Assembly (NCBI GenBank): GCA_030248195.1
Contig: JASAND010021507.1
Location: 1-64,000 of the forward strand
From: Trissonchulus latispiculum
Taxonomy: Eukaryota; Nematoda; Enoplea; Enoplida; Ironidae
Direction: 5' to 3'
Length of the DNA stretch: 64,000 nt
The notes below the pieces were generated by a model. The model saw nothing but the letters and a program-made list of their open reading frames with translations, was not told the origin of the DNA and searched no databases. The position numbers and the translations under genes were made by a program. This document shows, piece by piece, positions 11,230 through 45,946 of this stretch (position 1 is the first letter of the stretch; every line of letters begins with the position of its first letter).

Positions 11230-11711
<482 letters not shown>

Positions 11712-13541: not shown

Positions 13542-14927
13542 ATGGCCGAATTGAAGAATTTAATAACTCTTTTTAAGGGTTTGAGTAATTATAACGGGAG
13601 GGAAAACTCTCTAGCTCCCGACGAATGGATAATCAGTTTTGAGGCCATTGCGAAGGCAAATGATATCGGCGAAGATAAATTTTACTCAATTTTATTGGCA
13701 AAATTGGGTGAAAAAGTCATCCATAAACTTTCTTCTCAGGGAATGCCAGGTACGTACAAGGAGATGGTTGAACTCCTAAAAACACTTTTTGAGCCAGTTC
13801 AGAAAACTGCCGTGGAACATTCTAGGCAATTTTATGTACGTACTCAAAAATCTAATGAAAATGTTCAGGATTTTGTGTCAGATTTGGAAATTTTGGCTAG
13901 AAAGGCATTTCCCAAGGCCACTGATGATGAAAGAGCGGTGTATATTTTCGAGCAACTCAGAAAAGGTCTCAAAAGCAGTTTAAAAAACGTTGGAGTTTCG
14001 CTACTTTCTGATCTGGAAAGTTGGGGACATACAATGGTAAAACTGCGAAAGAATTGTGGTCCAACTTTCGCGTGTCGAAGAAGAATGTGACTCTGACTCA
14101 GCCGAGTCGGATAAATCGGAAAAGTCCGAAAAACCTGAAAAGGCAGAAAAAATCCGGAAAAGATCAAAACGGGGAAAATCTAAGGTGAAAGTTTGTACGG
14201 TTTCTTCGGACGAAACGGAAAAGTTAGACCCTATGGACTTGAAACTTAAGGAATTGGAAGAGGTGTTGAAAAAGGTCAAAATTCGAAATGCTCAGAGGGA
14301 TTTGGTTCTCGAAGCTACGAAAGGTGAGCCAGCGGCCTCAGAAAAACCCTTTACGAGCTCAGCTTCTGGTGCGGTAAATGCCGTACAGGCATCTACAGAA
14401 TTGAAGGAAAAACCTACTGACGAAAAGGCCGAAGATCAGAGGATTTGCTACAAATGTGGAGAAATCCTGGCCATATCTCGCCGCAATGCGCTCTAAATCG
14501 CCAACAGAGTTCGGGATTTAGAGGCAGCGGTAATCCAAATCGGCGTGGATTTGGAAATCGTGGTAATTCCCGAGGGAATTACAGTAACAACCGGAATTAT
14601 GATAATTCAGACTATTCCAATCAAAATTCTGGCCGAAATTGGAATAGAGGAAACCGAGGAAACTATAACGGTCGAGGAGGCCGACGGGGAGGAAATTCCA
14701 ACAACCGGAATCAAAATGCGAACGTTTTTGTGAACCCTAGTGGTCGGGTTTATCACACAAATCGTCAAAATGGCGTAAATTTCCTCACTCCAGTCCAACA
14801 GGAGATGGACCCCACTAGTCAGTTGGTGAATTTTCTGCAGAATGTTCAGCAAGCAGGGAGCACAGCAAATTCCGGGGGTGCCCCTCCGCAGTGGAATCCC
14901 CACCCGGAAAGCCAAGTACGTATATAA
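13542..14927 (+). pseudogene. gag: Frameshifted gag of an LTR retroelement
   Basis: The first part, from ATG 13542 to about 14050, encodes a capsid-like helical region, with the retrotransposon gag pattern around RQFYVRTQKSNENVQDFVSDL. The frame then moves for an acidic Ser/Glu/Lys-rich linker (14056-14450). It moves again inside a CCHC zinc knuckle: CYKCG is in one frame and NPGHISPQC in the next, near 14460. A Gly/Asn/Arg-rich nucleic-acid-binding tail follows. At least two frameshifts make this non-functional unless they are sequencing errors. No protease, reverse transcriptase or integrase is seen downstream. Confidence 0.7.
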
Positions 14928-16237
14928 CGCAGAAAAATCTGCAAGTCAATCTAGTGTCGGAAAAACCCCCAAATTTTTTGGAGGGTCTTTCGAAACCTTT
15001 TCCGGACGAAAAGGTTTTAAATGCTAATCAGATTTGTACAGTTTTTACACCTACGTATGCGAATGTTACTCGGGGTTCTGGATCTCAAAATTCTAAGGAA
15101 AACCCCAGAAATTTGTTACAGTCAGAATTGCAAAGATTTTTGCAAAATTTGGATATACGTACTTTGGTGGAGGCTTTAAATAGCCTTAACCCCCCCCCCC
15201 CTCCCTTTTTCTTCGCTTTCCTCAGAATGGCCATAATGTACAGCAGAATCAACAGCAACGTGTACAGAATGTTTTATCTCAGCCGTTGATTCCACTTTTT
15301 CCTGTAAATTCTGGGAGATTTCAGAATAGAACGTTTAGAAGAGGTTTTTCTACATTTCCTCGAAATACGTACAATGGAAATGCAACTTATCAGAATAATT
15401 CCCGCTACTACGCCTATAGTCGGGAGAATTATCCTAGAAATCAGCATTCTGCTCCACGTGTACCAAATTTTCGTGGAGGGCCACGAAATTTAAGGAATTG
15501 GAACGTGCGCCCCCATTCCCAAAACAGGTACAGTACGGGTTCAGGTACTACCCGAACTCCAGCTAGTGGCAATAATGGAAATGCCAATGTGCAACAGTAT
15601 CTTGCAGTGCCACAACCGTTGAATTTGCTTTTGGGAGCAAATCAAGCTCAAAGTGCGCGTATTTGGGAAACAGCAGGTTTTCAAGGGGAAACTCTGCCGC
15701 TCTCCCAAGTACAAATTGGCGCCATTACATGTGACACAGCAAGGGGCAACAGCACGTCAGCAAGTATCTAGTGCTAGGGTAGCTGGGGTAGGTAGTCAGG
15801 AATCATCTGTAGGTAAGAATTCGACGGTTCACGTCACTGATACTGGTGACCTAGTTCTGACGAATTCAAATAAGAAAGATGAAACCTGTACAACTAATGC
15901 TGCAAAATTGTCAGATGCCTCAAAATACAAAAAGTCGGAGACGAAAAATGCAAATACAGCAAATGGAACGGAAACAACGCTGAATATGTCTCAAGACCAA
16001 TTAGTTACACGATTGAATCGACTCAGAACAATTGATGAGGCACCTGATTCCGAGGAAAGTGAAACAAAAGATTCATTTTCGAATGTGGAGAGGGAGACTA
16101 ATGACGATAACAGACGAAAAGACGAACCTAGCTCATCATCAGGTAGAATTAGTTCAAATAAAAAAGTGAAATCCGATCAGAAGCGACGTTCTCATAAGAT
16201 TCCAGACCCAGATTTTCCTTGGAAGATTTCTTTTTGA
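14928..16237 (+). pseudogene. Broken Asn/Arg-rich ORFs following gag
   Basis: Overlapping frames at 14891-15289, 15286-15771 and 15653-16237 read on in order. The middle one is Asn/Arg/Tyr-rich with RGG-like pieces, resembling the tail of the preceding gag; the last is charged and Ser-rich. They may be the decayed remainder of the same gag-like gene or a second ORF of the element. No enzyme motifs are seen. Confidence 0.45.
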
Positions 16238-26360: not shown

Positions 26361-27301
26361 TGTGAAGGGTAGGGTTGAGTTTAGTTTGAAGCTTAGTTGA
26401 GATACCTGATCGGGAGGTCTAGAACTAACAATCGAAACCGCACTGTTCATTGACTTTTTGCACTGTTCGTCATTTTACTTCATTTTACTACACTGTTCGT
26501 TGACTGATCGATATTTTGCACTGTTCGTCATTTGTTGCACTGTTCGTCGCTGAATGGCTGTATATTTTGGCTGGTTCCCTAACCGCAATGAGTGACTGAT
26601 CGATAGATTGCTGTACATTTTTGTCTGGTTGTCTAACACATTTTTGTCTTGTTTTCTAACTTTTGTCTTGTTGTCTAACACATTTTCGTCTTGTTTTCTA
26701 ACTGCAATTTCCTAACTGCAATGTCTAAGCTGCAATGAATATTTTGTGTACTAACTTGCTTCCTAACCGCGATGACCATTGTTCCTGTAAACTGTTTACA
26801 AATTGCTATGAACATTTCTTTTTGTAATTCTGCATGGCTGATTAAAAACGGTGAATCTTGACTACTTCTTTGTTTGCATGTTTGTGGGTAATTTTCTCTA
26901 CCTGGTGATATGATTCTGAACAATTGTGCTTTGTATTGGGAAACCTATTATGTACTAATGGAAAGTTGTTTGTCAGTGGTATTTGAACTGCCATGAGTTC
27001 GTGGACCTAAGTGAATTAGATGATGCAAGGAATATTTTCGTAACTCTGGAAAACAAGCAAATTAATCCTGATTTATGAAAATGGTTTAGGAGTTTCTTTG
27101 TCCAGAAAGGATTGAACTATTTATGTATGCTCAATTTCTTAACTTAATGGGTTTGTTTTCGTCAAAATCGGGACTCTAGGGGACCACCTGAAACTCCAGG
27201 TAACCCCATCAGTCAAAAACAGGGCTACTGTTTCAAAAGGATCAAAAGAACTTCTAGGGAGACCGCTGATTCAGAGGGGGAATGACGTGAACTACCGTAG
27301 G

Positions 27302-27340
<39 letters not shown>

Positions 27341-28429
27341 TTACACATCACACGAGGCGGGGCTTATCTTCTACGTCATGAGTTGATTGACAGGAAGGGA
27401 GTTTCCAACCTGATGTCATAGCAGAGCCAGTCTTGGTCCGTCAGTCAAGGAGTTTGGTTGTGTTATTCGTTTTGTGGCCGTTTGGGCAGTTATTAGTACT
27501 TTGTGGCCGTTGTGCCTGCAGATTCTGCTTGTGTCCGGAAGGGACTGATATTGACATATCTACTTCAGTAAAGCCAGACTCAACCCACTGTTATTGCCAT
27601 ATTTGCGTCGACCCGCTTATACCACAGTTCAGATTTCACGGTAGTCACGTCATCTTCCCGTCCAGCTTCATCGGTCACTCTGTGGATATAAGGTAACTTT
27701 GAAACCAAAAGGTTCGGCTGCAGTCGTAAGAATTTTCCTATGCACAGTTGAGAGATCTAATTTGACAAATCTTCCTACCTTGTTTCTTGTCACCTGTAAA
27801 ATATTGTTACTAATTGTTGAGTGAACTGACAAAGCCTGTAGTTGTGGAACAGTCTGACTTAAATCTAATTGACAGTTTAACCGATATCTAATTAATGTTG
27901 ATGTTGTTTGTTGTTATTTTAATTTGTAAAAAACCAATAAATATACAATTTGCACAGTTTGAAGCAAACCTTCTGGCGTTGTGCCATTGAGACGAGATTG
28001 CATAACAGAATCAGGGACGATTTTGAGAACTGGGTGGACCACTGTTTAGATTACGGAAGCCCAGTTTAGGTAGAATTCAAGAACGGACGACCTCAAAGTT
28101 CAGTAAGCGGTCCATTCTTGATTAGGTAGTTAGGATCTGGATTGCATGATAATCTGCGAGGCCCCTGAAGACTCGCTTCAAAACGTTAAAACCGGATATC
28201 ACTATAATATTTATTGTGTGCATTAGTTAGAATTGGTGTCTATTATTGAGTCCCATTGGTGCTAGTCTGACTCTAGGAAATATTGCTGTCCTTGAGACCC
28301 CGATTGTTTTCAGGTAAAGTCGAACTGTTGAAAGAGGAGGCACAGATTCTTGAAATTTGAAAGGCGTGATTTGTGAAGAAGAACTTTAAACAGAAATTAA
28401 CCAGTGCTAACAAAACATTTTTCTTCACA
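26361..28429 (+). repeat. 5' LTR (2069 bp)
   Basis: Starts TGTGAAGGGTAGGGTTGAG and ends TTTTTCTTCACA. It carries an U3-like part with repeated GCACTGTTCGTCATTT units (26450-26550), a (CA)n run at about 27304-27338, a GC box GAGGCGGGGC (27354-27363), a decayed CRE (TGATGTCA, 27411), and AATAAA at 27936-27941. It aligns well with the 3' LTR from about 27120 onward but only poorly in the first 600 bp. A donor-like AAG-GTAACT lies at about 27690. Confidence 0.8.
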
Positions 28430-28867: not shown

Positions 28868-30400
28868 ATGCCGAATGATTTAGCCGAGTTAGGGTTGCCT
28901 GCGCAACCAGGACCCAAAGGGGCCAATGCCAATCCGCCAAGTGTAGAATCGCAAGTTCTCGCTAAGTTAAACGATACGTTAACTGAATTCAATTCTGCCA
29001 TTAGGGCTCAGGGTGTAGCCACTGCCTACAGTTCGGTTCCAATTTATCATGGGCTACCTTCCGAGTCGTTTGAGGAGCATTTAGAAAAGTATGACCGTTT
29101 CTGTCAGGTCATGGATTTTGAGGAAGGACAAAAAGTCCTTACCTTTTCCAGTTCCTTAGAGGGACGGGCTTTAGAATTATTTCGATCAGTGCCAAAACCC
29201 AGCCGAGGCACGTGGGCCGAGATGGTAGAGGCCACGAAAAAAGTTATGATCCCTCCTCACACAGCACTTCATGCATCATCACTCATGTTTCAAGTGAAAC
29301 AAGAGAAAGGTGAACCAGTTATGGATTACCTTATGAGATTAAATAGGTACGCACGACTCAGTTTTACCGAAAAGGATGGGTTTACTGAGGAGCAATTAGA
29401 ATTATTGAAATTGAGGCTATTTCTCTTTGGACTACGAAGTGATTTGAAAGCGCGTGTACCACCTGGGTGCAAAACCATGGAGCGCGCTGTCGAAAAAGCT
29501 CTTCAGGCTGAGGGTGAATATCCTGGGGAGGCCTACCCCTCGTTTATTGAACCAAATTTTCGAAATGATAGGGACACTCCTGCTGCCCTTGCAGAGGCTG
29601 AGAAGGCAGTTAAGGAACTGAAGGCCAAGTTCGAACAGTTCGAGTTAGATTCTAGACAGAAGGGAAATCCAAGTAGGAATGGTAAGGGACGCGATCTACC
29701 TCCGGGAACGACTTGCTTTAATTGCAATAAACCCGGACACGTTCGTCGTGAATGCCGTCAACCCGGCGGAGGAGCATACCGACCCAACAATCAGGGGTCT
29801 GACCGGAATTTTCAACGTAGGTCGGATGGGAATCAAAACTTTCGGACTAATTCAAATTTTCAGAATCAGAGAGAGAGAAATTACGACCAGAATGGTCGAG
29901 GAAACCGGTATGATAGGGATAACCGAAATTACCAGAATAATCGTCGGGATGACTACGCCCCGAGACGCGATCGGTACGAGAGAAACGATCGCTATGATAG
30001 GAAACCAAATCAGGGTAGGGACTTTCCCCCAGAAATGAAAAGAGAATATGGGCCTAAATTTGCTGTTTCTCGGACCCAAAATGAGGGGCAATGCTATGAA
30101 GGGAACAGCCGACGTCGCCAATATTCTGGAACGTCTGACTCGGCTGGCAGCGGATATAGAGACGGGTATTCGTCACGAGAACAATATCGTTCTCCCAGAC
30201 GTAGGGATGACTCGCGCTCAGATTCCTCGGGACAGTACACTGTCCGCACGACCCGTAGAGTTTCCAAAGATTGCATGATGCATGCAAAACGCTGTTTGGC
30301 CTCGCCACACTTTCAGCATAAAGTTCTAGCGTGTCGCCGGCCGTTGGTCTGCACCTGTCACGCGCCAGCGGCATACAGTCTCGTGAGGGAACCTGCCTAA
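28868..30400 (+). CDS. gag: Gag polyprotein of the giant retroelement
   Basis: A 510-residue intact Gag. The N-terminal half is a helical capsid-like region of the retrotransposon-gag kind (around residues 55-240, with VMDYLMRLNRYARLSF as a landmark). A charged linker follows, and at residue 283 a CCHC zinc knuckle, CFNCNKPGHVRREC (C-x2-C-x4-H-x4-C), which binds RNA. The C-terminal 200 residues are Asn/Arg/Asp/Tyr-rich and basic. The ATG at 28868 is the first after an in-frame stop. The ORF ends with TAA at 30398-30400 in the same frame as the Env-Pol ORF, 75 bases before its ATG. It packages the genomic RNA into particles. Confidence 0.9.
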   Translation: MPNDLAELGLPAQPGPKGANANPPSVESQVLAKLNDTLTEFNSAIRAQGVATAYSSVPIYHGLPSESFEEHLEKYDRFCQVMDFEEGQKVLTFSSSLEGRALELFRSVPKPSRGTWAEMVEATKKVMIPPHTALHASSLMFQVKQEKGEPVMDYLMRLNRYARLSFTEKDGFTEEQLELLKLRLFLFGLRSDLKARVPPGCKTMERAVEKALQAEGEYPGEAYPSFIEPNFRNDRDTPAALAEAEKAVKELKAKFEQFELDSRQKGNPSRNGKGRDLPPGTTCFNCNKPGHVRRECRQPGGGAYRPNNQGSDRNFQRRSDGNQNFRTNSNFQNQRERNYDQNGRGNRYDRDNRNYQNNRRDDYAPRRDRYERNDRYDRKPNQGRDFPPEMKREYGPKFAVSRTQNEGQCYEGNSRRRQYSGTSDSAGSGYRDGYSSREQYRSPRRRDDSRSDSSGQYTVRTTRRVSKDCMMHAKRCLASPHFQHKVLACRRPLVCTCHAPAAYSLVREPA

Positions 30401-30475: not shown

Positions 30476-32640
30476 ATGCCTAATCTGAGGCGAGACCGGA
30501 CGACATCCGAGCCAATTGTTGACACCAACACGGTGGCAACCCAATGTAATCTTGAGGCTTATGGGGGACTAGGAACCGGTTCGAGCCCAGGAGAAGATAC
30601 ACAGTCGAACGAACCGGACACTTTTTCCTACTTGTTTATGCTTTTTATGTGGACCTTGGCTGTCACTGTCAGGACCGTTAGAAAAGTAGCCGTACCCGCG
30701 GCATGGGTTCTATTGGCTTTCCTTGTGTCAAAGGCTAATGCCCAGACACAAGCTGACACCGATTCTTCCCGCTTTCTGGCGGACGAAATTGCGAAAATTG
30801 GTACCTTGGTTCTGCCCCGTTGGGGAGCAGTATTAAGTCCTGCAGGGATTGGGGTAATCTCACAGAAAACGGAATATCTTGCACTAATTGTGCAGCTAGC
30901 GGTACCGCCTATGTCACCTCAGTGGAAGCCCCCTGAATGGGCCAATGAGGAAGACTGCATTGATCTTTCAACAGGAAAGGCTAAGACCGACCAGTACTGT
31001 GTTCGTATGATAAATCAAAGTTGCCCGCAATTCGATTTTCTAGAACGCGAAATCGACTCGATTAAATTAGAATATCGGAAATTATATTCGGGAGTGTTAA
31101 ACACTCACTTTTATTCTAAGTTACTCTCAAGTTTGTGTCGTTCGACGCCTGGAGTCTGTACTTCCTACCCGGTACCGGAACAAACTCACAGCCGACCCAA
31201 GCGTTTTATCGAATTTTTGCTAGCAGGAGCATTGGGATTAGGAGGGCTCGCTAACAGTCTAGCTAACTCTTATCATTTAGGCGAATTAGATAACAGAGTA
31301 ATGGCTGTCGAACATGGGTTTAACGTTTTGAGGGAAGACCAACTTAAAATTACGGACTCTATTAAACGAATTGTCCATGCCAATGAACAGGTGTATGCCT
31401 TTTTGCATCACACTGTTCAGGATCTGACAACCTTGATTATTAGAGCGCGTTGTTCAAACTTTTCCTACATGCGGCAGATTTACATGCAACTGCTTGCTCA
31501 TATCTTTACTTCGTCTTTACGAGATGGTCTAAACTCTGTTATGCGCGCTGGTCTACATTCGGAAATTAATCCGAACTTGGTAAACTTACAGACTCTCAAA
31601 GGGATCATCCGTACACACCCTTCTCTGAGAAATTCATTACTTAGTCAGGAGCCAAGCCTAATTTATCAGTTTGGGAAGGTCTATCCCATTAAGATTGACT
31701 TCAACACCTTACGTTTTGGTTTTATGTTGGAAATTCCTGTGCCTTTGGAACAGGAGGTAAGGCCCTTGTATGCCATTCAGAACGTAGGATATAATTCCCG
31801 GAAAAACGGAATTACATCTCTAGCACCACTGCCGGATTACGCGCAACGGTTGGATACTGGCGAGGTGAGGGAGATAGATGTCTCTGCGTGCAAAACAGCA
31901 CCGGGACTCTGGTTTTGTCCTCCCAATGCGATAGTGATGAGTTTAAGGGCAAAATGTTTACAGATTCTTATAAGTTATCCACCCGAACGCGTAGGCGAGG
32001 AATTTGAACACTGCCGCGAATACATACAGGTCAAAGTACTGGATAATTCTACTATCTATCGTACGACGCCCGCCGGCGTACTGGTTAGGACGAACTATAC
32101 CGAGGTCATTGTTGCAAGATCACCCTCGCTAAATCACGTGGCCGAAGGTGAAAGAGTACCCGTTCCAGAAACAGGAACCCTCTGGTTCGAGCACGGTAGA
32201 TACCTACATTTGATCATCGGTAACACCATTTTAACTAGCACGTTAGGCATTGCTAAGACTACTGTGACCACCTCCGATTTGAGAGAAACGATTGTTCCTG
32301 CCCCCTTGGGGCGGATCCCATTACATTTTACGGAACTTTCCACGGCAGAATATGAGAACGAGCAAGCAAAAAATTTAATTCAGAATCAAGTTAAAAATTA
32401 CGTGCATTTACCTCTAATTCCGTTAGAGCTCAAACACGGCTTGATGGTAGTTATTGTCATAGTACTATTGGGATGTTTGATTATCTGGTGGATTACCCCT
32501 TGTGGTAGAAAATTTAGGGCCAAAATTAGAAATCGTAAATCTCCATCCCCCCGACCCAATAGGCCCGCTATTTCAGCGCCCATTGAGAATCAGAAATTGC
32601 AAGAGAATCTGTTTAGTGATGATGAAGAAGAGGTACCGAT
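30476..32640 (+). other. env: Envelope-like domain within the polyprotein
   Basis: Class-I-like fusion glycoprotein region, placed at the N-terminus of Pol rather than downstream in its own ORF. Evidence: signal segment, Cys-rich ectodomain, R-x-K-R cleavage site, then FIEFLLAGALGLGGLANS with Gly/Ala/Leu character of a fusion peptide, an amphipathic coiled region (GELDNRVMAVEHGFNVLRED), several Asn-x-Ser/Thr sites, and a single anchor followed by a basic cytoplasmic start (GRKFRAKIRNRK). The family assignment to baculovirus-F/errantivirus envelopes rests on this architecture and remains to be tested. Confidence 0.7.
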
Positions 32641-35600
32641 TGAACTAGGTAATCTCTCCGTCAAGAGTGACCCGATGCCTTATCGACCACGAGAGAGTCT
32701 CGAGACTACATTCGCTGAGCGCAATCGTAAGTCTATGGCAAACCGATGCCACGCAACCACTCATTATAAGCCGATTTCTAGAGATACTTCATACGCCTCA
32801 TCTATGTCCGATTACGGACAGGATCCTCTAGATATCAGCTCTCGACCGCTGACCGATGATAGTCGAGAGAGTCAACCCTCACCGCTTATAGACCTAGGGT
32901 GTGATCTCAAAGGCAAAGGGAACCGGATTGTGCGGTTCTCGCGACAGGTAGCTATCGAAGGATCTGAGGAAGAGGATCCTACAGTGTCCCCTCATGCACA
33001 CGCAGATGCTGCCACTAGTCCTTTTAAACGAAACGTGAGACCTGTCAGTCCGGAGTCTGATGGATCGGGACCACAGACACGACTGTCCACCCGCGGTTCC
33101 GGGAGAATGGTAAATGCCCACTCAGTCTTGATGGTTAGGACTATACCGCTTATGATCAGTTTACTGCTCGTAGGACAGCCCGTTAATGCTCTTTTCGACA
33201 CCGGATCTCTGCTGTCAATAATGTCTCAGAGCTTGGTTGATAGATTAGGCTTGACTACTACACCCGTTGAAACCTTGGGGTCCTTACGCACCGCAAATGG
33301 GGGAAAGTGTCAAATTTTGGGCTATGTAAAAATACCTATAATCTTTGCCGGGGCTGAAAAACGTTTACCCGTTCGTAACTGGAAATTTTTGGTGGTGGAA
33401 AAATTGACTACTGACTGCATTCTAGGATCTGATTTTATGGTAACTTTTCCGGGAGAAATCTCTTTAGATTTCGGCCAACATACAATTACCTGGCCTGCCT
33501 CTGACGGTACACGTGTAACCCTACCACTTATGATACCAACCAAGCCTAAGAAGGTCGAGATTTTTCATATAGGTATGACCCAACGAAACTCGTGTACCTG
33601 TTGCATGGAGGAAGTGAGTACCACACCGCCGAGACCACTTCCTATGATTTATGTGAATTTGAAGGGACAACCGGTGCAAACCTTATTGGATACTGGCGCA
33701 AATTTGAGTCTAATGAATGAAAGTTTAGTTAAATTTCTAAATTTGAAAATACTACCAATGGATAGACCTTTGCGAGCCGAAGGGGTTAACGGACAAGCTT
33801 TAAAATTTAGAGGAGCCGTTAAGGTACCTGTTGAATTCTACGACACTCCTGGGATAACCGTCGAGCATACTTTTCTGGTCCCTAAGGGACTAGCTGAGGA
33901 TTGCCTCATAGGAACCGATTTCTTACACGAGCACGGTGGGGATCTCACTCTAAGTTTCGCACAGGGTGAACTGAGACTGTGTAAGCCCGAGCGTCCCCCA
34001 ATGGTTGCTAAACTAATACATCAGGTACCCGTCACGCATACCACTTATCGAGTTTCCGCTATACAAAAAGTTACGATTCCGGCCTACTCTGAAGTAGCCG
34101 TGCCCGCATTAGTTGAGAGTATGGAAAAATTGAAGTATGATGGTCTTTTTGAGCCCACTGAGGTGAAATTTGCTGCGGAAAATTCCAGTGTTCAAGTGAT
34201 GCCAGCCATGGTAAATCTGAGGCAAAGGTTAATTCCTGTTCTTATGAAAAACAAGACAGGACAGGCGATAACTATCTACGAAAATTCTACACTAGGTAAT
34301 GTGACGCCTCAGAATGAACTTCGGCGAGGTGGTGACATTCGTAACTATCGACCACTGGTCAATGAAAATGGTGAACCGGTACGACTGAGAAATCCTCCGA
34401 AGCTCGGTGTAAATCCTAGTCAGAGAACTGGGTATAGCGTTAACGCTTGCTTCACCGACCAACAGTGTACTTTAAACGACTTGCCGGAACCAATGCGCGA
34501 GATTTCATTCGATCAGGAAAATTTGTCGAAAACGGAAATTGGACAGTTTCTAGGGCTCCTAAACACAAATCGAAACTGTTTCTCTCAGCATCCTTTCGAT
34601 ATTGGCAAATGCACTATTTTTAAAGCGCACATTAACACCGGGGATGCTAAGCCTCTGTACGCCACACCTTATAGGCTCCCTGTACACCTGAGACAGCCGT
34701 TGCTGGAGGAACTCACGGAGATGTTGAAGTACGGACTAATTAGGCCGTCCACTAGTCCTTGGAGTTCACCTATGATCTACGTACCTAAGCCAGGAGGTAA
34801 ACTGCGACTATGCGTTGACTTTAGGCGGGTCAACAAAATTAGTGATCCGGATGTATACCCAATCCCGCGCATTGATGACATAATGACATCATTGAAAGGG
34901 TCAAAGTTCTTCTCTACAATCGACTTGAGTAAAGGATTCAATCAGATTGAACTTGACGAGGAATCTAAAGCTAAAGCGAGTTTCAATACTTTTCATGGTC
35001 AGTTTGAATATAATGTTTTGCCTTTCGGATTAAAATGCGCACCCGGTAACTTTCAGCGCTGCATGGAAAGAATTTTGGGCGACTTACAGTGGAAAAAGTG
35101 CATTATCTACATAGATGATATTTTGATCTTTTCGAAAAGTTTTGAGGAGCATTTGAAAATTATGCAAGAAGTTTTTGATCGTCTGCGCGCCGCTGATTTG
35201 AAAATGAATCCAGGAAAATGTCATTTTTTGAAAAAATCCGTCACCTACCTGGGACACATTATTTCAGAGCAAGGGGTCGAACCCCTAAAGGAGCGCATCC
35301 AAGCCATACATGACTTAGCCGTACCAAGAAATATTAAGGACGTGGAAAGCTTTTTAGGGATGTGTGCTTATTACGCAAAGTTCATCAAAGGTTTTGCGCA
35401 TTTGGCTGCCCCACTCTACTCTCTCAAAAAGAAAGGTGTGCGTTTTGTTTGGAATAATACGCACCAGCAATCTTTTGTCCTCCTTAAAAAGAGTTTGGTC
35501 GAAGCACCAGTACTCGCGCATCCCGATCTCACAAAAGGTTTTATTCTTCATACTGACGCCTCTGATTTGGGATTGGGTGCTGTTCTATCACAGGAACAGG

Positions 35601-38600
35601 ATGATGGTAAATATCACCCTGTTGCATACGCTGCCCGATCATTAAAAAAGTACGAGCGAAACTATTCCACTCATGATAAGGAGTGTCTAGCTATGAAATT
35701 TGGAATTGAGCATTTTCGTCATTACCTTTACGGTGGCCCCCCTTTTACTTTGTTTACTGACCACTCTGCTTTGCGTTGGCTAATGAAACATCCCCCTCGG
35801 AATTCTCGGTTAGCTCGCTGGCAAATGACATTCTCGGAATATGATTTTGAAATCAAGCACCGAAATAATCCTCAGCTTAGGAACGCGGATGGACTCTCTA
35901 GGAATCCTTTATTTGCTGATATTGCCAGGGGTCTGTTAGGTGATGAACAGGAAAATGACAGAAAATTTGTGCAAATTTATCAGGACGAGAGTGAGGAACT
36001 GGTCGCTCACATAAATTTGGTTATTATTCGTGGACAGGCCCGACGGGCCCGAAATCCTAATGTCGCTGTTGTTAACAAATTAAGAGCAAAAAAGGGACCG
36101 CCAGCCGTAAGATCCAAAGTTTCGAAGATCTCGCAACCCTCTAGCTCCAGTGATTCTGATGAGGAACAAGGTCAACCATCCCCTGAAAAACAACCGAAAT
36201 TGAGGAGTACGCGGAAAATTTCTAGCTCCGAAACAAGCGAAGATGAGCCTGACAGTAAATCAAGCTTGCGACCACGCATACTAGATTTAGATTATCCTAG
36301 TAAGGTTTATGAAAAATCCGTCGATGCCTCTCCGGAAGCTGGCCGTTCGAAACGAATTGATCCGGTCACGGCTGTCTTTAGTGACGTTTTTCACCATGCC
36401 GTTCGGGACAATTCCAACGTCTCCCTAAACCCTAAATCTTGGGCTAAATTGCAAACTTTACAACGCGAGGACTTACTTTTGAAAGGCATTATCGACTATA
36501 AAACACTGGGAAACTTACCTAGTAATTTTAACTTGGCTGTCAAAATTACGTCTCTGTCCGAGCAGTGCGACATGCGCGACGACGTCTTAGTTCATCTCGA
36601 AAAAATGAGAGATACCACGTTAGAAGTTTTAGCTGTCCCTGAAAGTTTGCGCGACGAAGCTTTAGCCGCGTGTCATGACAGTCCTTACGCCGCACACGGT
36701 GGTAGAAATAAGACCAGCTTCAGATTGTCCCAACATTTCTGGTGGCCTGGAATGTATGCTGACGTTAAGCGATGGGTGGAGTCCTGTCCTCGTTGTCAGA
36801 GACGAAAAGGACCTCCGAAAAACCCTAAGGCCATGCTTCGACATGCTCCTATAGCCGTCGAGCCTTTTGAGCGCGTTCACTGTGATTTGATGGACGTTAG
36901 TAAAACTTCTAAAAGCGGAATGAAGCATATCTTGAGCTTCATTGATGCCTTTTCGAAATATGTGATTGCCATACCTATTAAGAATAAAACTGCCTATTCT
37001 GTTGCGCAAAGTTTTCTCGAATTTGTCATTCTGCAGTATGGCTCGCCAAAATTGCTAATTTCAGATCAGGGCAAAGAATTTGTTGCACAGCTCAATAAGG
37101 AAATTTGTTCGCAGGTTCAGACACGGAAACTTGAGACTACTAGATATCATCCTGCTGCAAACGGGCAGGTTGAACGCTGGCATAGAACACTGTTGGACAT
37201 GCTTGCTACAGTTACCGAGAACCATTTAGAATGGGACAACATGGTTCCCTATTGCCAGTTTGCATACAACACTTCCATCAATTCTACCACTGGAGAAACA
37301 CCCCATTATCTGTTACATGCCTGGGATCCTGTTCTTCCCAGTGCCACGAACGTCTCCATACCCACTGACCGAAAGTATTCTGGTTTCGACTACGTTAGGG
37401 AAGCGACGGAAGCGCTTCAACTTGCTTGGTCATTAGCTCGCGAAAAAATTGGCGCTGCGCGGAAAATTAACGATGAAAGTTACAACAAAAATGCCGTAGA
37501 ACCGAAGTTTCAGGTCGGTGACTTGGTCATGATTAAGGCCTCGAATGTCGCCAAGCGTGACCAAGTTTATAAATTGTTAGATAAGAAAATTGGCCCATAC
37601 CGTGTTGAGAAGATCGTTGGCTGTGTTGCAGAGGTCTACCCTGCAGGCAACCGCCGTGCCAAGAGGGTCAAAGTACAGTTCAATAACATGTACCCATGTG
37701 TTGAACCTCGTGTGATTACTGCTCCCGTTCACGATCATGACGGCGAAGGTTCAGACAGTGCTGAATCCCCTGCGCCTGACTCACAACCAGCTAAGAGTGT
37801 TGCAAAGTTACAGAAAGCTAACCTACCCAGTACACCGCCTCCAGCCGCTCCTCCTTCCGAAAATGAAACCCCCAAGCCTTTCATTCGCAAGCAATCTACT
37901 CGAAGATCTAAGGCCAATCGTTCTGACACGAGTCCCGAGAAACCTCCCTTCCAGCCTAGGAAACGTGTACCTCTCTCTCCTAAGCAGAAAAGTGTTGCTC
38001 CGCCTAAGGTTGTGGTTTCATCACAAGACTCTACTTCCGAAACTGACAGTATTCCCCAGTTCGTAGGAGAAGAATCACTCTCCCCCGAAAACGATCCAAT
38101 AGCTTTTAATCGTAGAAACTTTTTTAATCCGGTAGATGCACGTTGGCAAGGACATATGGCCATACTACGTGGTCTTCCGGTAGAACACCGTCTCCCAGAA
38201 ATGATGAGACATACCCCCCTACATGAACCATACGAGGTGATCAATGTAGTGGGTGACGGAAATTGCTTCTATCGAGCCATCTCTCTGGCTATTACCGGAT
38301 CGGAAGATCATTGGAAAACTGTAAAGCGTGGGTTATTAGAATTTTTCTCTACTTACGAGCATAAACGCCGGTTTCGGACACTTTTTACTGACCCAGAAGC
38401 GGTTAGAAATAGACTGACTAAAACTGCAGAATACGCAACTGATGATGAATTATTTTTGACCGCTGCCTGGTTGCGCACTCCGATTCAATCTTACTCAAAG
38501 TTTGGCAAGGTCTGGGCATGGCAACAATTTCTGCCGGATGCACTATTAGGCTCTAGCCAAAGTTATGAACGAAATGCACTGTACTTGTATAACGAAAACA

Positions 38601-38899
38601 GTGATCATTTCATGGTAGTGCTTTCAGTACAAACACCTGCCGATTGGAAATGGCCTACCAGTAACAACCCCAAAATTTCGATTATGGAGTTGGTATCTTC
38701 TTCCTCCTCCAACCAATCATCTCCTGCCGACAATGCCAATAAAGGCGGCAGATCCTCTGCACCAAACGTGGAGAAACTGTTCTCCGAAAGCCCATTGCTT
38801 TCTGGTGCTAGCCCCATCTTTAGAAACCCCTTCAGGAAGTCCCAACGCGGGAAATCTTCCTCTGGCCCTATGTCGGGTCGACATTCGTCTGAGCAGTAA
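30476..38899 (+). CDS. env-pol: Env-protease-RT-RNaseH-integrase-OTU polyprotein (2807 aa)
   Basis: One uninterrupted ORF. Residues 1-90: a hydrophobic signal near 63-90. About 91-243: surface-type ectodomain ending in a furin-like RPKR (240-243). 244 onward: fusion-peptide-like hydrophobic stretch and heptad region, then a membrane anchor at about 656-676, resembling F-type/errantivirus envelopes. About 890-1160: two retropepsin domains (DTGS at 908, DTGA at 1072). About 1380-1810: reverse transcriptase (YIDD at 1545) and RNase H (first Asp 1694). About 2060-2380: integrase with an HHCC zinc site, D2137, D2197, E2233 (DD35E) and a GPY motif. About 2580-2720: OTU cysteine protease (DGNC with Cys2597; His2711). 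Low-complexity Ser/Pro-rich linkers separate RNase H from integrase and integrase from OTU. All visible catalytic residues are present, so the enzymes could be active. How the envelope is freed from Pol is unclear; the proteases are the obvious candidates. Confidence 0.9.
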   Translation: MPNLRRDRTTSEPIVDTNTVATQCNLEAYGGLGTGSSPGEDTQSNEPDTFSYLFMLFMWTLAVTVRTVRKVAVPAAWVLLAFLVSKANAQTQADTDSSRFLADEIAKIGTLVLPRWGAVLSPAGIGVISQKTEYLALIVQLAVPPMSPQWKPPEWANEEDCIDLSTGKAKTDQYCVRMINQSCPQFDFLEREIDSIKLEYRKLYSGVLNTHFYSKLLSSLCRSTPGVCTSYPVPEQTHSRPKRFIEFLLAGALGLGGLANSLANSYHLGELDNRVMAVEHGFNVLREDQLKITDSIKRIVHANEQVYAFLHHTVQDLTTLIIRARCSNFSYMRQIYMQLLAHIFTSSLRDGLNSVMRAGLHSEINPNLVNLQTLKGIIRTHPSLRNSLLSQEPSLIYQFGKVYPIKIDFNTLRFGFMLEIPVPLEQEVRPLYAIQNVGYNSRKNGITSLAPLPDYAQRLDTGEVREIDVSACKTAPGLWFCPPNAIVMSLRAKCLQILISYPPERVGEEFEHCREYIQVKVLDNSTIYRTTPAGVLVRTNYTEVIVARSPSLNHVAEGERVPVPETGTLWFEHGRYLHLIIGNTILTSTLGIAKTTVTTSDLRETIVPAPLGRIPLHFTELSTAEYENEQAKNLIQNQVKNYVHLPLIPLELKHGLMVVIVIVLLGCLIIWWITPCGRKFRAKIRNRKSPSPRPNRPAISAPIENQKLQENLFSDDEEEVPIELGNLSVKSDPMPYRPRESLETTFAERNRKSMANRCHATTHYKPISRDTSYASSMSDYGQDPLDISSRPLTDDSRESQPSPLIDLGCDLKGKGNRIVRFSRQVAIEGSEEEDPTVSPHAHADAATSPFKRNVRPVSPESDGSGPQTRLSTRGSGRMVNAHSVLMVRTIPLMISLLLVGQPVNALFDTGSLLSIMSQSLVDRLGLTTTPVETLGSLRTANGGKCQILGYVKIPIIFAGAEKRLPVRNWKFLVVEKLTTDCILGSDFMVTFPGEISLDFGQHTITWPASDGTRVTLPLMIPTKPKKVEIFHIGMTQRNSCTCCMEEVSTTPPRPLPMIYVNLKGQPVQTLLDTGANLSLMNESLVKFLNLKILPMDRPLRAEGVNGQALKFRGAVKVPVEFYDTPGITVEHTFLVPKGLAEDCLIGTDFLHEHGGDLTLSFAQGELRLCKPERPPMVAKLIHQVPVTHTTYRVSAIQKVTIPAYSEVAVPALVESMEKLKYDGLFEPTEVKFAAENSSVQVMPAMVNLRQRLIPVLMKNKTGQAITIYENSTLGNVTPQNELRRGGDIRNYRPLVNENGEPVRLRNPPKLGVNPSQRTGYSVNACFTDQQCTLNDLPEPMREISFDQENLSKTEIGQFLGLLNTNRNCFSQHPFDIGKCTIFKAHINTGDAKPLYATPYRLPVHLRQPLLEELTEMLKYGLIRPSTSPWSSPMIYVPKPGGKLRLCVDFRRVNKISDPDVYPIPRIDDIMTSLKGSKFFSTIDLSKGFNQIELDEESKAKASFNTFHGQFEYNVLPFGLKCAPGNFQRCMERILGDLQWKKCIIYIDDILIFSKSFEEHLKIMQEVFDRLRAADLKMNPGKCHFLKKSVTYLGHIISEQGVEPLKERIQAIHDLAVPRNIKDVESFLGMCAYYAKFIKGFAHLAAPLYSLKKKGVRFVWNNTHQQSFVLLKKSLVEAPVLAHPDLTKGFILHTDASDLGLGAVLSQEQDDGKYHPVAYAARSLKKYERNYSTHDKECLAMKFGIEHFRHYLYGGPPFTLFTDHSALRWLMKHPPRNSRLARWQMTFSEYDFEIKHRNNPQLRNADGLSRNPLFADIARGLLGDEQENDRKFVQIYQDESEELVAHINLVIIRGQARRARNPNVAVVNKLRAKKGPPAVRSKVSKISQPSSSSDSDEEQGQPSPEKQPKLRSTRKISSSETSEDEPDSKSSLRPRILDLDYPSKVYEKSVDASPEAGRSKRIDPVTAVFSDVFHHAVRDNSNVSLNPKSWAKLQTLQREDLLLKGIIDYKTLGNLPSNFNLAVKITSLSEQCDMRDDVLVHLEKMRDTTLEVLAVPESLRDEALAACHDSPYAAHGGRNKTSFRLSQHFWWPGMYADVKRWVESCPRCQRRKGPPKNPKAMLRHAPIAVEPFERVHCDLMDVSKTSKSGMKHILSFIDAFSKYVIAIPIKNKTAYSVAQSFLEFVILQYGSPKLLISDQGKEFVAQLNKEICSQVQTRKLETTRYHPAANGQVERWHRTLLDMLATVTENHLEWDNMVPYCQFAYNTSINSTTGETPHYLLHAWDPVLPSATNVSIPTDRKYSGFDYVREATEALQLAWSLAREKIGAARKINDESYNKNAVEPKFQVGDLVMIKASNVAKRDQVYKLLDKKIGPYRVEKIVGCVAEVYPAGNRRAKRVKVQFNNMYPCVEPRVITAPVHDHDGEGSDSAESPAPDSQPAKSVAKLQKANLPSTPPPAAPPSENETPKPFIRKQSTRRSKANRSDTSPEKPPFQPRKRVPLSPKQKSVAPPKVVVSSQDSTSETDSIPQFVGEESLSPENDPIAFNRRNFFNPVDARWQGHMAILRGLPVEHRLPEMMRHTPLHEPYEVINVVGDGNCFYRAISLAITGSEDHWKTVKRGLLEFFSTYEHKRRFRTLFTDPEAVRNRLTKTAEYATDDELFLTAAWLRTPIQSYSKFGKVWAWQQFLPDALLGSSQSYERNALYLYNENSDHFMVVLSVQTPADWKWPTSNNPKISIMELVSSSSSNQSSPADNANKGGRSSAPNVEKLFSESPLLSGASPIFRNPFRKSQRGKSSSGPMSGRHSSEQ
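33140..34010 (+). other. Tandem retropepsin domains
   Basis: Two homologous aspartic-protease units lie side by side: FDTGS with a later DCILGSDF, and LDTGA with DCLIGTDF. Retroviral proteases normally have one active-site triad per chain and must dimerise. Two intact triads in one chain suggest a self-contained single-chain enzyme, like cellular pepsins, or a duplication with divided tasks. Confidence 0.75.
38210..38640 (+). other. OTU-type cysteine protease domain
   Basis: The segment VVGDGNCFYRAIS (Asp2594, Cys2597) and a distal NSDHFMVVLS (His2711) are the hallmark motifs of OTU deubiquitinases, with an intervening region of normal length (about 120 residues). OTU proteases cleave ubiquitin conjugates; those of nairoviruses and arteriviruses blunt host responses or process polyproteins. 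Here it could do either. It ends the ORF, with only a Ser-rich tail beyond. Confidence 0.8.
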
Positions 38900-39896: not shown

Positions 39897-40624
39897 ATCC
39901 TAGAGGAGTTCGTCATGCCGCCGACTGATTTGCCCATCCGTGATGAGTGTATAGAGGAGTACCCGCCGTCTCTCCCGCCGCCCAATCCTGCATTGATGAA
40001 TCCTGTACCAGCTCCGCCTGATCCGACCGCCTTGTTCTATCGACTGATGACTTGTGAGATTGGACCACTTCGAGACTCCGGATCCCTGCCCCCAGGATTG
40101 ATTGAGATCACCAAAGGATCGCAGAAGTTTGTTGTCACCAGTCCCTTTAGGCCCCAGTTGTTCCCGCCTAACCATAGAGTTCATCTTCTGAAGGAAGGTA
40201 TTCATATTGCTCAGGTGTGCAGCTCCTCTGTTGTAATTGTTTTTGGAGAGTTGGTTTGTCATACCATGGTGTTCCTTTCGTGTTTTACCCTTTAGAGGAC
40301 AAGTTCCGCGAGAAGTCTAACATCATTAAGCGTTGTCTTCTTCGTGCGCTCCCATCGGTCCAAAATCCCATTTGCCGCTGTCCTAACATTAATTGCTTGT
40401 CCGATAAGACTGTGTCGTTGCTTGAACATAGAAGTTGGCCGCATGCCATGCGTGTACGGTGGGATGACTATCAGAATAGTTTGTTTGCTAAGATTGGCTT
40501 GATCCATCCCGATTTGCCTGATACTATCGGTGATCCGTGCATGCCTATGTTGGAGGATGCTATTATGTATTTGCCCAATTTCCTAGGTTATCAATATGAT
40601 CGTTTGTTGAGCATGACTGAATGA
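39896..40624 (+). pseudogene. Accessory gene 1 (zinc-ribbon-like), frameshifted copy
   Basis: The ATG is at 39915, 18 bases after an acceptor-like AG. The N-terminal half is acidic and Pro-rich (IEEYPPSLPPPNPAL). The reading frame shifts by one base between about 40215 and 40230. The downstream frame carries LCCNCFW, SYHGVPF and CRCPNINC and runs to the stop at 40624. The four Cys follow C-x2-C-x46-C-x4-C, exactly as in the next two genes. The lost base lies immediately before the first Cys pair; no slippery heptamer is seen, so a deletion or sequencing error is likelier than programmed shifting. Its function is unknown. Confidence 0.65.
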
Positions 40625-40755: not shown

Positions 40756-41385
40756 ATGGCTCCGAAGCTTCCCCCCGTCATTGAATCTGATCCCGATCCT
40801 GCACAGGAAGATCCTGCTTTGACTGTTCCCTTTAGCCTAGCTTGCCCGCTTGAGTTTCAAGGTCCCCTGCGCGTGCCTAGTGAAATGCCCAATGGTCTGG
40901 TGATGCTTCCTGGTATGTTAGATGTCTACACTGATCCCCGCCATCAGGAATTGTTTAAGGAAAATAACAGGGTTCATTTAGTCGATCCGCAAATTGCGCA
41001 GGTTAGCACTTTCCTATGCCTTAACTGTTTTTGGAGAATAGGTTTGAGTTTTCATGGAGTACCAGTTCATGTTTTTCCCGTGTCTGATGAAGCCCGCCGA
41101 TCCACCCATCCTGCCAAGGCTTACCTGCATGAACATGTCCCTTCGTCTGGTGGAGGTATTTTCCGTTGTCCAAACGTCCGTTGTCAATCTGTTTGCGTGC
41201 TTGTTTTGCATGAATTGCAAGAATGGATGCATGGCCGTGGCATGCAAGTTTTAAGTGCTGATGTGCGTGAAGTTTTGTTTAACCTGCCTTCTTTCCTTTA
41301 TCCATATATTCCGCGTGATGTTCTGAGTTACTGTATGCGCATGAATGGTGAACTGAATCCCTATTTCCCTAATACCTTAGGTTAA
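40756..41385 (+). CDS. Accessory gene 2, zinc-ribbon-like protein (209 aa)
   Basis: Intact ORF from ATG 40756. Acidic/Pro-rich N-terminus, then a conserved core: RVHLVDPQIAQV, LCLNCFWRIGLSFHGVP, and FRCPNVRC. The cysteines are C88, C91, C138 and C143, a C-x2-C-x46-C-x4-C arrangement suited to one zinc ion. No signal peptide or membrane helix, so cytoplasmic or nuclear. Paralogous to its two neighbours and on the same strand as gag-pol, inside the LTRs, so it belongs to the retroelement. I do not recognise the family; a regulatory or host-antagonist role is a guess by analogy with complex retroviruses. Confidence 0.75.
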   Translation: MAPKLPPVIESDPDPAQEDPALTVPFSLACPLEFQGPLRVPSEMPNGLVMLPGMLDVYTDPRHQELFKENNRVHLVDPQIAQVSTFLCLNCFWRIGLSFHGVPVHVFPVSDEARRSTHPAKAYLHEHVPSSGGGIFRCPNVRCQSVCVLVLHELQEWMHGRGMQVLSADVREVLFNLPSFLYPYIPRDVLSYCMRMNGELNPYFPNTLG

Positions 41386-41476: not shown

Positions 41477-42151
41477 ATGCCCGTCCCGATCCTAGCTTGG
41501 TTGAATGGTCAGGAGAAGTTTGCAGCCAATGAGACCAATGATGACCTGACCTACCTCCTCCCCAAACTCACCCCACGTCAGCGGGTGATGCGTGTGTTTG
41601 CGGATGAAGGCATTCATACGCTTCGGTACAATCCTGGTCCTGACCCCCTCATGTGGATCACCCCTCAACAGCGAGGACCCCCTCGAGATTTGTTCCCGCC
41701 GATTCCGGAGCTGAGGAGATGCCTGCGCACCCAACGGATCTACGTCGCTCCCGGAACTTCTGAGTTGTTTGCTCCAGGCAAAACTGTCCGTCTGCTTGAT
41801 CCAGAGGTATTGGAGGTTTGCACGTTGCTGTGCACGGACTGTTTTTGGAAGTATTCCATTTCCTACTATGGAATACCATTTAAGTTTCGCACGCTGCCCA
41901 ATTCTGTTCTGTTTGAGTCGTTTCCGACTAAGGTTAACCTGCAATCCTATGTTGAGCCCGCTGTCGATGTTCAGTTCCATTGTCCTAACCGCATCTGCAT
42001 GTCCCCTAAGGTTATTATTTTGCATGTGAACGGCAGCTGGGGCACCATTCCGTTTCCGTACAAACTGCCTGCCTGCATTGCCCTTACTCTTCCGTACTTG
42101 CATCACATGCATCGTCATTTTCCAGAGGATCTCGTCGATCCTAAGTTTTAG
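41477..42151 (+). CDS. Accessory gene 3, zinc-ribbon-like protein (224 aa)
   Basis: The ATG at 41477 is chosen because an upstream TTG (41465) would place the start before the acceptor. The longer, distinct N-terminal half is followed by the shared core: TVRLLDPEVLEVCTLLCTDCFWKYSISYYGIP and FHCPNRICMS in separate blocks. Cysteines C119, C122, C169 and C174 keep the same x2/x46/x4 spacing as genes 1 and 2, although the surrounding sequence has diverged widely. That spacing argues for selection on a folded zinc site. Family unknown. Confidence 0.75.
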   Translation: MPVPILAWLNGQEKFAANETNDDLTYLLPKLTPRQRVMRVFADEGIHTLRYNPGPDPLMWITPQQRGPPRDLFPPIPELRRCLRTQRIYVAPGTSELFAPGKTVRLLDPEVLEVCTLLCTDCFWKYSISYYGIPFKFRTLPNSVLFESFPTKVNLQSYVEPAVDVQFHCPNRICMSPKVIILHVNGSWGTIPFPYKLPACIALTLPYLHHMHRHFPEDLVDPKF

Positions 42152-43804: not shown

Positions 43805-45946
43805 TGTGAAGGGTAGGGTAGAGTTCAGTCGAGATTTTGGATTAATTTTGAGATATTCGGTTGATTCTAGGTTGATTTTATCGGTCTTGAGTAGGATTTT
43901 GAACATTGATTCGTATGAGAATTACTTGAGAATTACTTGCACCTGCACCTGTCTGGTTTGCTTGTTTTTACTTGTTCATTGCTTTGCACCTGTCTGTCTT
44001 TTTTTATTTTTGCACACTTATTTTTGCTTTTTTGCTTTGCACATACGATTTTCAATCTATTTTTGCTTTGCTTTGCTTTACACTTACGAATTTCAACTGT
44101 ATTACCTACGAATTTTAACTGTGTTGCATGATTTTTGCTTCTTTTAAGCCACTATGTTTACTGCACTGCAATGATTTGTACCTCTACCTGTGACTCTAAC
44201 CAGCAATGCATAACTGTAATGAATTTAATGTTTTATTTGTACTTTGTTTGTGACTGCAATGAAATATGCTTTGTGTTTTGACTAATTGCTTGTTGTTTTG
44301 ACTAATTGAGATGTGCTTGTTTAGCTGCCACAACTAACCTAAACGTGCTTGTGATTGTTTTTAACTGTACTTTTGTGTTAATCGTTTCTTGTTTGTAACT
44401 GTACAGCTGTTTAATGCTAAATCAATAACCTGTTTGTTTGGGTGGACAATGGTCTTTGTGTTTTGTTCGGTCTAAATTGTGAACTCAATGAAGATGTTTT
44501 GTCTCCTAATCCATAAGGTGTTTGAATTGTTCCTAGTTTGTGGACCTAAGGATTATTAGGCAATTTGATGAATCTTTTCAAGAATCTGGAAAACAAGGAA
44601 ATTAATTTTGATTAATGAAAATGGGTCTTTGTTAGAAGGGATTTGAGCGATTTTTGTATGCATAATTTCCTAACTTAATGGGTTTGTTTTCGTCGAAATC
44701 GGGACTCTAGGGGACCACCTGAAACCCCAGGTAACCCCATCAATCAAGAACAAGGCTACTGTTTGAATAAGATCAAAGAAATTCCAGGGAGGCCGCTGAG
44801 TCAGAGGGGGAATGACGTGAAGTACCGTAAGACACATTCACACACACATAGACTACACGTAACACGAGGCGGGGCTTGCCTTCTACGTCACACTTTGATT
44901 GACAGGAAGGGAGTTCCCGGCCTGACGTCACAACGCAATCAGTCTTGGTCTTGAAGCGAACCAGGTTGGTCGGTTGTCTATTTTGCCGGGTTGGCAGTTC
45001 TGTTCTGTGGCCGTGGTGCCTTGACTTGTTTGTTAGTCCAGGAAGGACATATTCTTGTTGTTGTTGTACGCCAGCATATGACCAGACTCCCAATCTACTT
45101 GTCAAACCCATCTTAGCTCCCATTATTGCTTATCCGTCCGCGGCTATTTCACGGTACTTCACGTCTTTCTCCATTCTAGTCCAGCGGATCCTTTCCAGGA
45201 GGTAAAGAGTTTCGAAATAGACACGGGTATACTTTGAGCTACCAAAAGGTTGGTTCAATTGAGCAAAATTCAACTTGAGTCTCGTGATATTCAGATTGTT
45301 TTATTTAGTCCCTCGCATACTTGTATCTCGGGTTCTTGTATATGTTGTTAAATGACCTTTTCATGTTTGATCTGTTTGGAAACTGTGTAATTGTTGATTA
45401 ATTTTGTAAACCATTGTTCTGTAAATTGTGATTAAAAAAATTAAAAACAAATTGTGACTTTTATTCATTTTGGGCTTAACGCTGCGTCACACTTTTGATA
45501 CATTAGCGAGATCTTATATTTTAGACTAGGGATTGATTTGAGAACTGGGTGGACCATTGTTTACTTACGGAAGCCCAGTTTAGGTAGGAATCAAGAAGCA
45601 GATCTCAAAGTTTAGTGAGTGATCTGTTCTTGATTAGGTAAATTAGGTTCTGGATTGATTGATAAACTGCGAGGCCCCTGAAGACTCGCTCCAAAACGTG
45701 AGAAACCGGAAAACCGGCTGCTCTGTCATTTACTGTGTATACTAGCTAAGCCTGTATCTATTGCTGGGATTGTTTGGGAGGTGTTGGACTGAAAGTGCTT
45801 ATCGTTGATATACGGACCCCTGTAACCCAAAAGTGAAACCTAATCGTTAGAAAGGAGGCACGAATTTGTGAAGACAAAAAGGTGTAGTTTCTAGAGAAGC
45901 ATCTCAAACCCAAATTTACCAGTGCTAGCAAACCATTTTCTTCACA
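43805..45946 (+). repeat. 3' LTR (2142 bp)
   Basis: Starts TGTGAAGGGTAGGGTAGAG and ends TTTTCTTCACA. Promoter-like motifs include a GC box GAGGCGGGGC (44866-44875) and a perfect cAMP-response element TGACGTCA (44923-44930). A donor-like GAGGTAAAG lies at about 45200, matching the donor-like site in the 5' LTR. Blocks at 44655-44800 and 45540-45700 are close to the 5' LTR, while the first 600 bp hardly aligns. Confidence 0.8.

Follow-up and report, generated by a model that had tools for sequence, protein, structure and literature searches.

In retroviral logic Env comes at the end and has an RNA to itself, which allows the doses of enzymes and envelope to be set separately. Insect errantiviruses carry Env as a third ORF, which the extract of PMC12992720 consulted describes as expressed from a spliced subgenomic RNA, and in C. 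elegans the CERV product of the Cer1 element likewise comes from a spliced RNA, according to the extract of PMC10309623. In nematodes, Atlas virus and its hookworm belpaovirus relatives have a single-ORF Gag-Pol-Env of 2828 residues (extract of PMC9094657). Ginger1 transposases end in an OTU domain placed after an integrase of gypsy type (extract of PMC2836005). In planarians, the giant gypsy-like Burro/GYPSM1 elements have an Env-like region between Gag and PR-RT-RH-IN (Arkhipova and Yushenova 2019, PMC6431247). A Burro element encodes Gag within a single reading frame of about 4,900-5,100 aa, exceeds 30 kb in total and carries BCL2, BIR, ankyrin and dUTPase-like parts (PMC6431247).

Here we describe a locus within a 64,000-nucleotide stretch of contig JASAND010021507.1 from the nematode Trissonchulus latispiculum (assembly GCA_030248195.1), the whole of which is referred to below as the window. 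We consider it likely that this locus is a Ty3/gypsy-type (metavirus-like) endogenous element with the order Gag, Env, Pol, whose Env-Pol precursor would be anchored in the membrane with its enzymes in the cytosol. A preliminary description of the locus held that no described element has such an arrangement. This does not stand, since Burro elements have gag, env and pol in that order in a shared frame (PMC6431247); an Env placed before Pol is uncommon, yet the arrangement has been published and is not in itself new. An Env-first Pol ORF accompanied by a separate Gag ORF was not found described in the literature searched, and the survey of Chary and Hayashi (2025) may contain such elements.

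Layout of the locus and its Pol enzymes

The Gag stop codon, TAA at 30398-30400, is followed by CGG, and the 25 codons upstream of the Env-Pol ATG (30476) are stop-free back to the Gag stop. Because this spacer stays open, the locus reads as Gag-stop-Env-Pol in a single frame. Within the Env-Pol ORF (ORF2), a signal, an Env-like ectodomain, RPKR, a fusion-peptide-like stretch, a heptad repeat and an anchor come first, and are followed by two retropepsins, RT, RNase H, integrase and a C-terminal OTU protease. The 2807-codon ORF, its Pfam domains and its motifs confirm the earlier account of an Env-like part placed ahead of PR-RT-RH-IN in one uninterrupted frame. Whereas errantiviruses have env downstream of pol as an ORF of its own, the Env-like part here lies upstream and in frame.

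Table 1 Features of the candidate element, in order of position in the window (residue numbers refer to ORF2)
Feature	Position	Strand	Details
5' LTR-like repeat, TGTG...CACA	26925..28429	+	1505 bp; ends chosen by eye
Gag ORF	28868..30400	+	510 aa; Retrotrans_gag, CCHC knuckle; ends in TAA
Open spacer, 25 codons	30401..30475	+	frame shared with Gag and Env-Pol
Env-Pol ORF (ORF2)	30476..38899	+	ATG start, 2807 aa, uninterrupted
Signal-peptide-like hydrophobic stretch	30686..30742	+	residues 71-89; ends ANA before Q90
RPKR furin-like site	31193..31204	+	residues 240-243; motif
Fusion-peptide-like stretch	31205..31273	+	residues 244-266; hydrophobic and Gly-rich over 244-262; 11/23 identical in P0013
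Heptad repeat	31268..31372	+	residues 265-299; score vs composition shuffles
Membrane anchor	32429..32497	+	residues about 652-674; hydrophobic stretch
Linker, anchor to proteases	32543..33130	+	without Pfam match
Retropepsin 1	33131..33475	+	Pfam; DTGS at residue 908
Retropepsin 2	33620..33985	+	Pfam; DTGA at residue 1072
Reverse transcriptase	34781..35263	+	RVT_1, E 4.2e-39; YIDD at residue 1545
RNase H	35525..35842	+	RT_RNaseH, E 6.4e-39
Integrase, H2C2 zinc-binding domain and rve core	36635..37150	+	Pfam Integrase_H2C2, rve
SH3_Tf2-1-like C-terminal integrase domain	37517..37630	+	E 7.9e-4, below Pfam cut-off
OTU-like cysteine protease, C-terminal	38252..38512	+	PF02338, E 2.7e-6, above cut-off
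Small ORF 1, interrupted	39915..40238	+	similarity continues in another frame at 40223-40588
Small ORF 2	40756..41385	+	209 aa; without Pfam match, open
Small ORF 3	41477..42151	+	about 224 aa from first ATG; open; 33% identical to ORF 2 over 101 aa
3' LTR-like repeat, TGTG...CACA	44457..45946	+	paired with 5' repeat

Pfam was run on five separate pieces. A Gag with a CCHC motif and a Pol in the order PR-RT-RH-IN, as expected of the Ty3/gypsy type, were both found. The best solved matches of the RT were 4ol8 (E 5.1e-76), which we take to be the Ty3 RT, and the Ty3-G Gag-Pol 7q5b (E 8e-76), both ahead of retroviral RTs; by these comparisons the RT is nearest to Ty3-type RTs, as expected of Metaviridae. 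The integrase has its HHCC motif from residue 2067 and D-D-E from residue 2137. The two retropepsins are 36% identical over 113 aa. In the OTU domain, DGNC at residues 2594-2597 is followed downstream by SDHF, the His of which is presumably the catalytic C-terminal His; the domain had one solved match, 6dx5 (E 2.8e-4), a chain labelled RNA-dependent RNA polymerase that we take to be a viral OTU domain. By homology, the OTU domain may serve in the removal of ubiquitin. An OTU domain at the end of a gypsy Pol was not found described in the literature searched. The preliminary description of ORF2 included neither the second retropepsin nor the OTU domain. A search of the five pieces for BCL2, BIR, ankyrin or dUTPase-like domains gave none at E up to 0.1, an Rfam scan gave no match and a tRNA scan found no gene.

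Several other features were seen elsewhere in the window. At 13389-16237, a further Gag-like region, degraded and with a weak match to Retrotrans_gag (E 0.032), lies with adjoining ORFs and is probably another retroelement. Minus-strand ORFs resembling seven-transmembrane receptors occur within 4974-10143 and at 58974-59474; those at 4974-5816 and 9271-10143 share DNA similarity, and those at 9271-10143 and 58974-59474 gave only weak, below-cut-off matches to 7TM_GPCR_Srbc and 7tm_1, in keeping with an animal genome and perhaps with that of a nematode. An AC microsatellite of 455 bp occupies 11230-11684.

The Env-like region and related elements

Re-examination of ORF2 residues 1-700 recovered the signal, the RPKR site at 240-243, the fusion-peptide-like stretch and the anchor that had been noted previously. 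Ahead of the signal-like stretch come a hydrophilic N-tail and, from residue 50, another hydrophobic patch. RPKR is the sole R-x-K/R-R site within residues 1-700. The same residues contain 13 cysteines, 10 of them in the ectodomain. The heptad score following the fusion-peptide-like stretch was reached in 2 of 500 composition shuffles; for the relative P0013, described below, the figure was 1 of 500. A membrane-proximal segment was weaker, with 27 of 500 shuffles reaching its score. A cleavage site, hydrophobic fusion peptide, heptad repeat and anchor, the plan of a class I envelope, are thus present in both the window and P0013, and by this architecture and its conservation in one relative the N-terminal region of ORF2 is best described as Env-like, and probably class I-like.

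Other elements of the same order were found in the protein set when it was queried with the RT region (7964 candidates scored, 5190 at E 1e-10, 120 matches listed). A YxDD-type motif was present in 118 of the 120 matches listed, 51 of which had more than 600 residues upstream of the motif. Among the matches listed, a strong transmembrane segment upstream of YxDD was found only in P0013 and P0049, with P0035 and P0037 having a weaker segment at the very N-terminus, and BLASTP similarity to the window Env was found only in P0013.

P0013 is a partial protein of 1705 aa from a 7465-bp contig, named at NCBI as the pol polyprotein of a Nitrospirales MAG; in our view the contig is eukaryotic and was placed in that bin in error. 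It has the order Env-PR-RT seen in the window, with an RT that is 69% identical, and its front aligns with the window Env at 209 identical positions out of 659 (32%, E 2e-100). The P0013 Env region has a signal-like stretch at one end and an anchor-like stretch at the other, polybasic sites (RARR at 244, RRRR at 255) ahead of the conserved fusion-peptide-like stretch, and two N-x-S/T sites as against the four in the Env-like segment of the window. Eight of the 10 ectodomain cysteines of the window have a Cys partner in P0013; the other three cysteines, in the N-tail and anchor, are partnerless. That the class I plan is kept in so diverged a pair suggests that it is under selection in these Envs. 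P0013 has one retropepsin, 36% identical to retropepsin 2 of the window and 29% to retropepsin 1, so the protease duplication of the window is not common to the two.

P0049 is a protein of 2294 aa from a public contig (lgn/ena), and is in one frame throughout. Its CCHC motif stands at 335 and its signal-like stretch near 414-436; a match to Monjiviricetes_fusion follows at 737-892 (PF24664, E 1.6e-17), then an anchor near 995-1020, and after these PR, RT, RNase H and integrase in the same frame. No Gag profile matched P0049 at E up to 1, and BLASTP found no similarity between its Env and that of the window (best E 1.1). The envelope-before-Pol topology is therefore found again with an Env of unrelated type. 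From the window and 60 or 43 of the 120 matches listed, RT trees of 61 and 44 rows, respectively, were built. In both, the window, P0013 and P0016 formed a clade with 100/100 support, inside a 10-row clade with 100/99 support. P0016 comes from a 3032-bp contig that starts just upstream of RT, so its Env region is not covered. The P0049 RT fell outside the window's clade in the 44-row tree, in which the bootstrap had not fully settled.

Expression, repeats and alternative readings

The Env-Pol frame could be reached by readthrough of the Gag stop, from a spliced mRNA or by reinitiation, as alternatives. RNA structure at the Gag stop was no stronger than that of shuffles (z -0.13 to -0.54), and the Env ATG has an unremarkable acceptor ahead of it, sites of equal quality lying within 40 nt of 33% of the ATGs in the window when scored with approximate splice weight matrices. 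As the stop structure is at shuffle level and the acceptor at background, neither readthrough nor splicing is supported. A different possibility is that Env and Pol share a frame and are made separately, with splicing to give one mRNA for Env and another, for Gag-Pol or Pol, from which Env has been removed, leaving the Env-Pol protein minor or absent. The spliced envelope RNAs reported for insect errantiviruses and Cer1, in the extracts cited above, provide a model for this, and donor-like sites are present at 28314 (in the leader) and 29682 (within Gag). The ordinary acceptor counts against separate products, as do the single ORF in which Burro has Gag, Env and Pol, the single frame that P0049 has for its Env, Pol and CCHC motif, and the open Env-Pol frame of two elements with Envs just 32% identical. 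We consider separate production unlikely, though a serious competitor, and retain the anchored Env-Pol precursor as the preferred reading.

The two LTR-like repeats flanking the ORFs may represent the LTRs of an element 19 kb long. Their identity depends on gap costs: with ordinary costs it was 77% (942/1224) or 76% (1061/1397), figures that are adopted here, with cheap gaps 82% over a longer stretch, and with the cheapest gaps 87%. Under cheap gaps the similarity runs past the named ends, so the repeat borders are uncertain. Along the pair, identities ranged from 49 to 91 per 100 alignment columns, and none of 2000 shuffles was as uneven. A convincing target-site duplication was not found, just a 5-bp flank match at shifted ends. 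TGG was seen by eye at 28432, where comparison with tRNA ends suggested no match beyond a few bases. Between Env-Pol and the 3' repeat, three small ORFs without a family-level Pfam match form tandem diverged paralogues; acceptor-like sites as good as those upstream of them were found before 14%, 3% and 6% of window ATGs, respectively, with the approximate matrix.

A recent simple insertion is unlikely, as the repeats are about 76% identical and vary in identity along their length. In a neutral simulation run at the lowest estimate of divergence, a mean of 4.1 stops arose in Gag, and of 10.4 and 11.0 stops in the two halves of ORF2, along with many frameshifts. As the divergence is uneven and Gag and ORF2 are still open, a single old pair decaying neutrally is also disfavoured, and the locus is either a mosaic of two element lineages or has parts under selection. 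If the repeats come from two lineages, the LTR clock is uninformative. Open ORFs beside an LTR-like pair of about 76-77% identity, where the neutral simulation predicts many stops in Gag and ORF2, would also be expected of an immobile, domesticated locus held by host selection, its ORFs intact and its LTRs drifted apart. The uneven repeat divergence, unmatched in 2000 shuffles, fits two lineages or selected control blocks, and for this reason domestication is held only as a rival, not as the lead; moreover, P0013 shows the same type of element elsewhere. We consider domestication improbable, and continue to read the locus as an endogenous Ty3/gypsy-type element.

A likeness to F-type or retroviral envelopes, which the preliminary description proposed to look for, did not emerge from the profile and sequence searches run. 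Pfam gave nothing above cut-off for these residues, with one match below it (DUF7546, E 0.012) and no Baculo_F or gypsy Env profile at E up to 0.1; for residues 91-690, no envelope family was returned at E up to 10, a setting at which HMMER filters drop most weak matches. Searches of the PDB with Env gave chance-level matches only (best E 0.5 with one sequence, 0.55 with a two-sequence profile), as did PHROGs (one match, E 0.35), and NCBIfam had no match for Env or Gag. An Env-alone query of a large protein set yielded no relatives among the 7997 and 7998 candidates scored. No relative was confirmed in IMG/VR contigs (Env, RT and Gag queries plus alignments) or GTDB contigs (two alignments), and none was found in phage records. 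AlphaFold models of the ectodomain from two runs had a mean pLDDT of 36.5 and 35.8, and were unusable for fold. These results leave room for the N-terminal 690 residues of ORF2 to be a membrane-anchored non-fusogen, a matrix-like or receptor-like anchor for Pol. Such a role is improbable given the signal, polybasic site, conserved hydrophobic Gly-rich stretch, heptad repeat and anchor, which make up a class I plan that is present in P0013 too, though the polybasic letters differ; a class I-like envelope is the reading we keep. Finally, the joining of Env to Pol by assembly error or one-off recombination, an artefact the preliminary description had allowed for, is extremely improbable and is answered in the main by P0013, an independent record with the same Env-PR-RT order and a diverged Env and RT, and by the frame that is open across the Env/Pol join, even though the differing LTR-like repeats mean that the locus may be a mosaic.

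Proposed topology and comparison with known systems

Under the preferred reading, the Env signal would send the nascent chain into the ER, placing the ectodomain in the lumen, where it would be matured by signal peptidase and furin. The anchor would leave PR, RT, IN and OTU on the cytosolic side, where Gag assembles, and the element's retropepsin would then free the Pol enzymes. The tandem retropepsins may act as a single-chain (tethered) dimer, which would be useful if Gag-Pol dimerisation is absent, and Pol would enter particles tied to Env, not as a plain Gag-Pol fusion. We infer the topology, furin use, fusogenicity, membrane-tethered Pol and single-chain protease from sequence, and on this footing the earlier proposal that the enzymes face the cytoplasm is supported. 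For P0049 the same topology would be expected, with its Gag-like part first in the chain.

By placing Env ahead of Pol in one frame, such an element ties the envelope to the enzymes, which would force a different packaging of Pol. Taken together, Burro, the window element and the unrelated Env of P0049 suggest repeated origins, or repeated refilling, of this order. We tentatively raise the possibility that, in a wider set of animal metaviruses, the place between Gag and Pol serves as an envelope slot with exchangeable contents, which unrelated fusogens have entered, and that it defines a replication strategy whereby Pol is both synthesised and packaged as a cytosolic tail on Env. The occupants of such a slot would be class I-like in the window and P0013, and of Monjiviricetes type in P0049. 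If this is true, the protease duplication would suit a Pol that is no longer brought together by Gag-Pol fusion.

Several known systems share parts of this organisation. The Ginger1 transposases, with their integrase and OTU domain, differ in being DNA transposons, for which the extract of PMC2836005 mentions no RT, Gag or Env. Atlas virus, as presented in the extract of PMC9094657, likewise has an envelope within one long retroelement ORF, but there Env comes last, is a class II phlebovirus-like protein and belongs to a BEL/Pao-type element. The insect errantiviruses gypsy and ZAM resemble the window element in their Ty3/gypsy-type Pol and in an Env with signal, furin site, fusion peptide, cysteines and anchor; their Env is F-type, whereas no Baculo_F profile match was found here. 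P0049 has its Env between a CCHC-bearing N-terminus and PR-RT-RH-IN, with signal and anchor flanking Env, but its Env is of a Monjiviricetes family, all its parts are in one frame and its RT lies outside the window's clade. The window element is set apart from Burro, as the latter has been described, by a separate Gag ORF, a 2807-aa Env-Pol and a candidate length of about 19 kb, and also by its two retropepsins and C-terminal OTU domain; like Burro, it is long, has accessory ORFs and keeps an Env-like region in frame after Gag and ahead of Pol.
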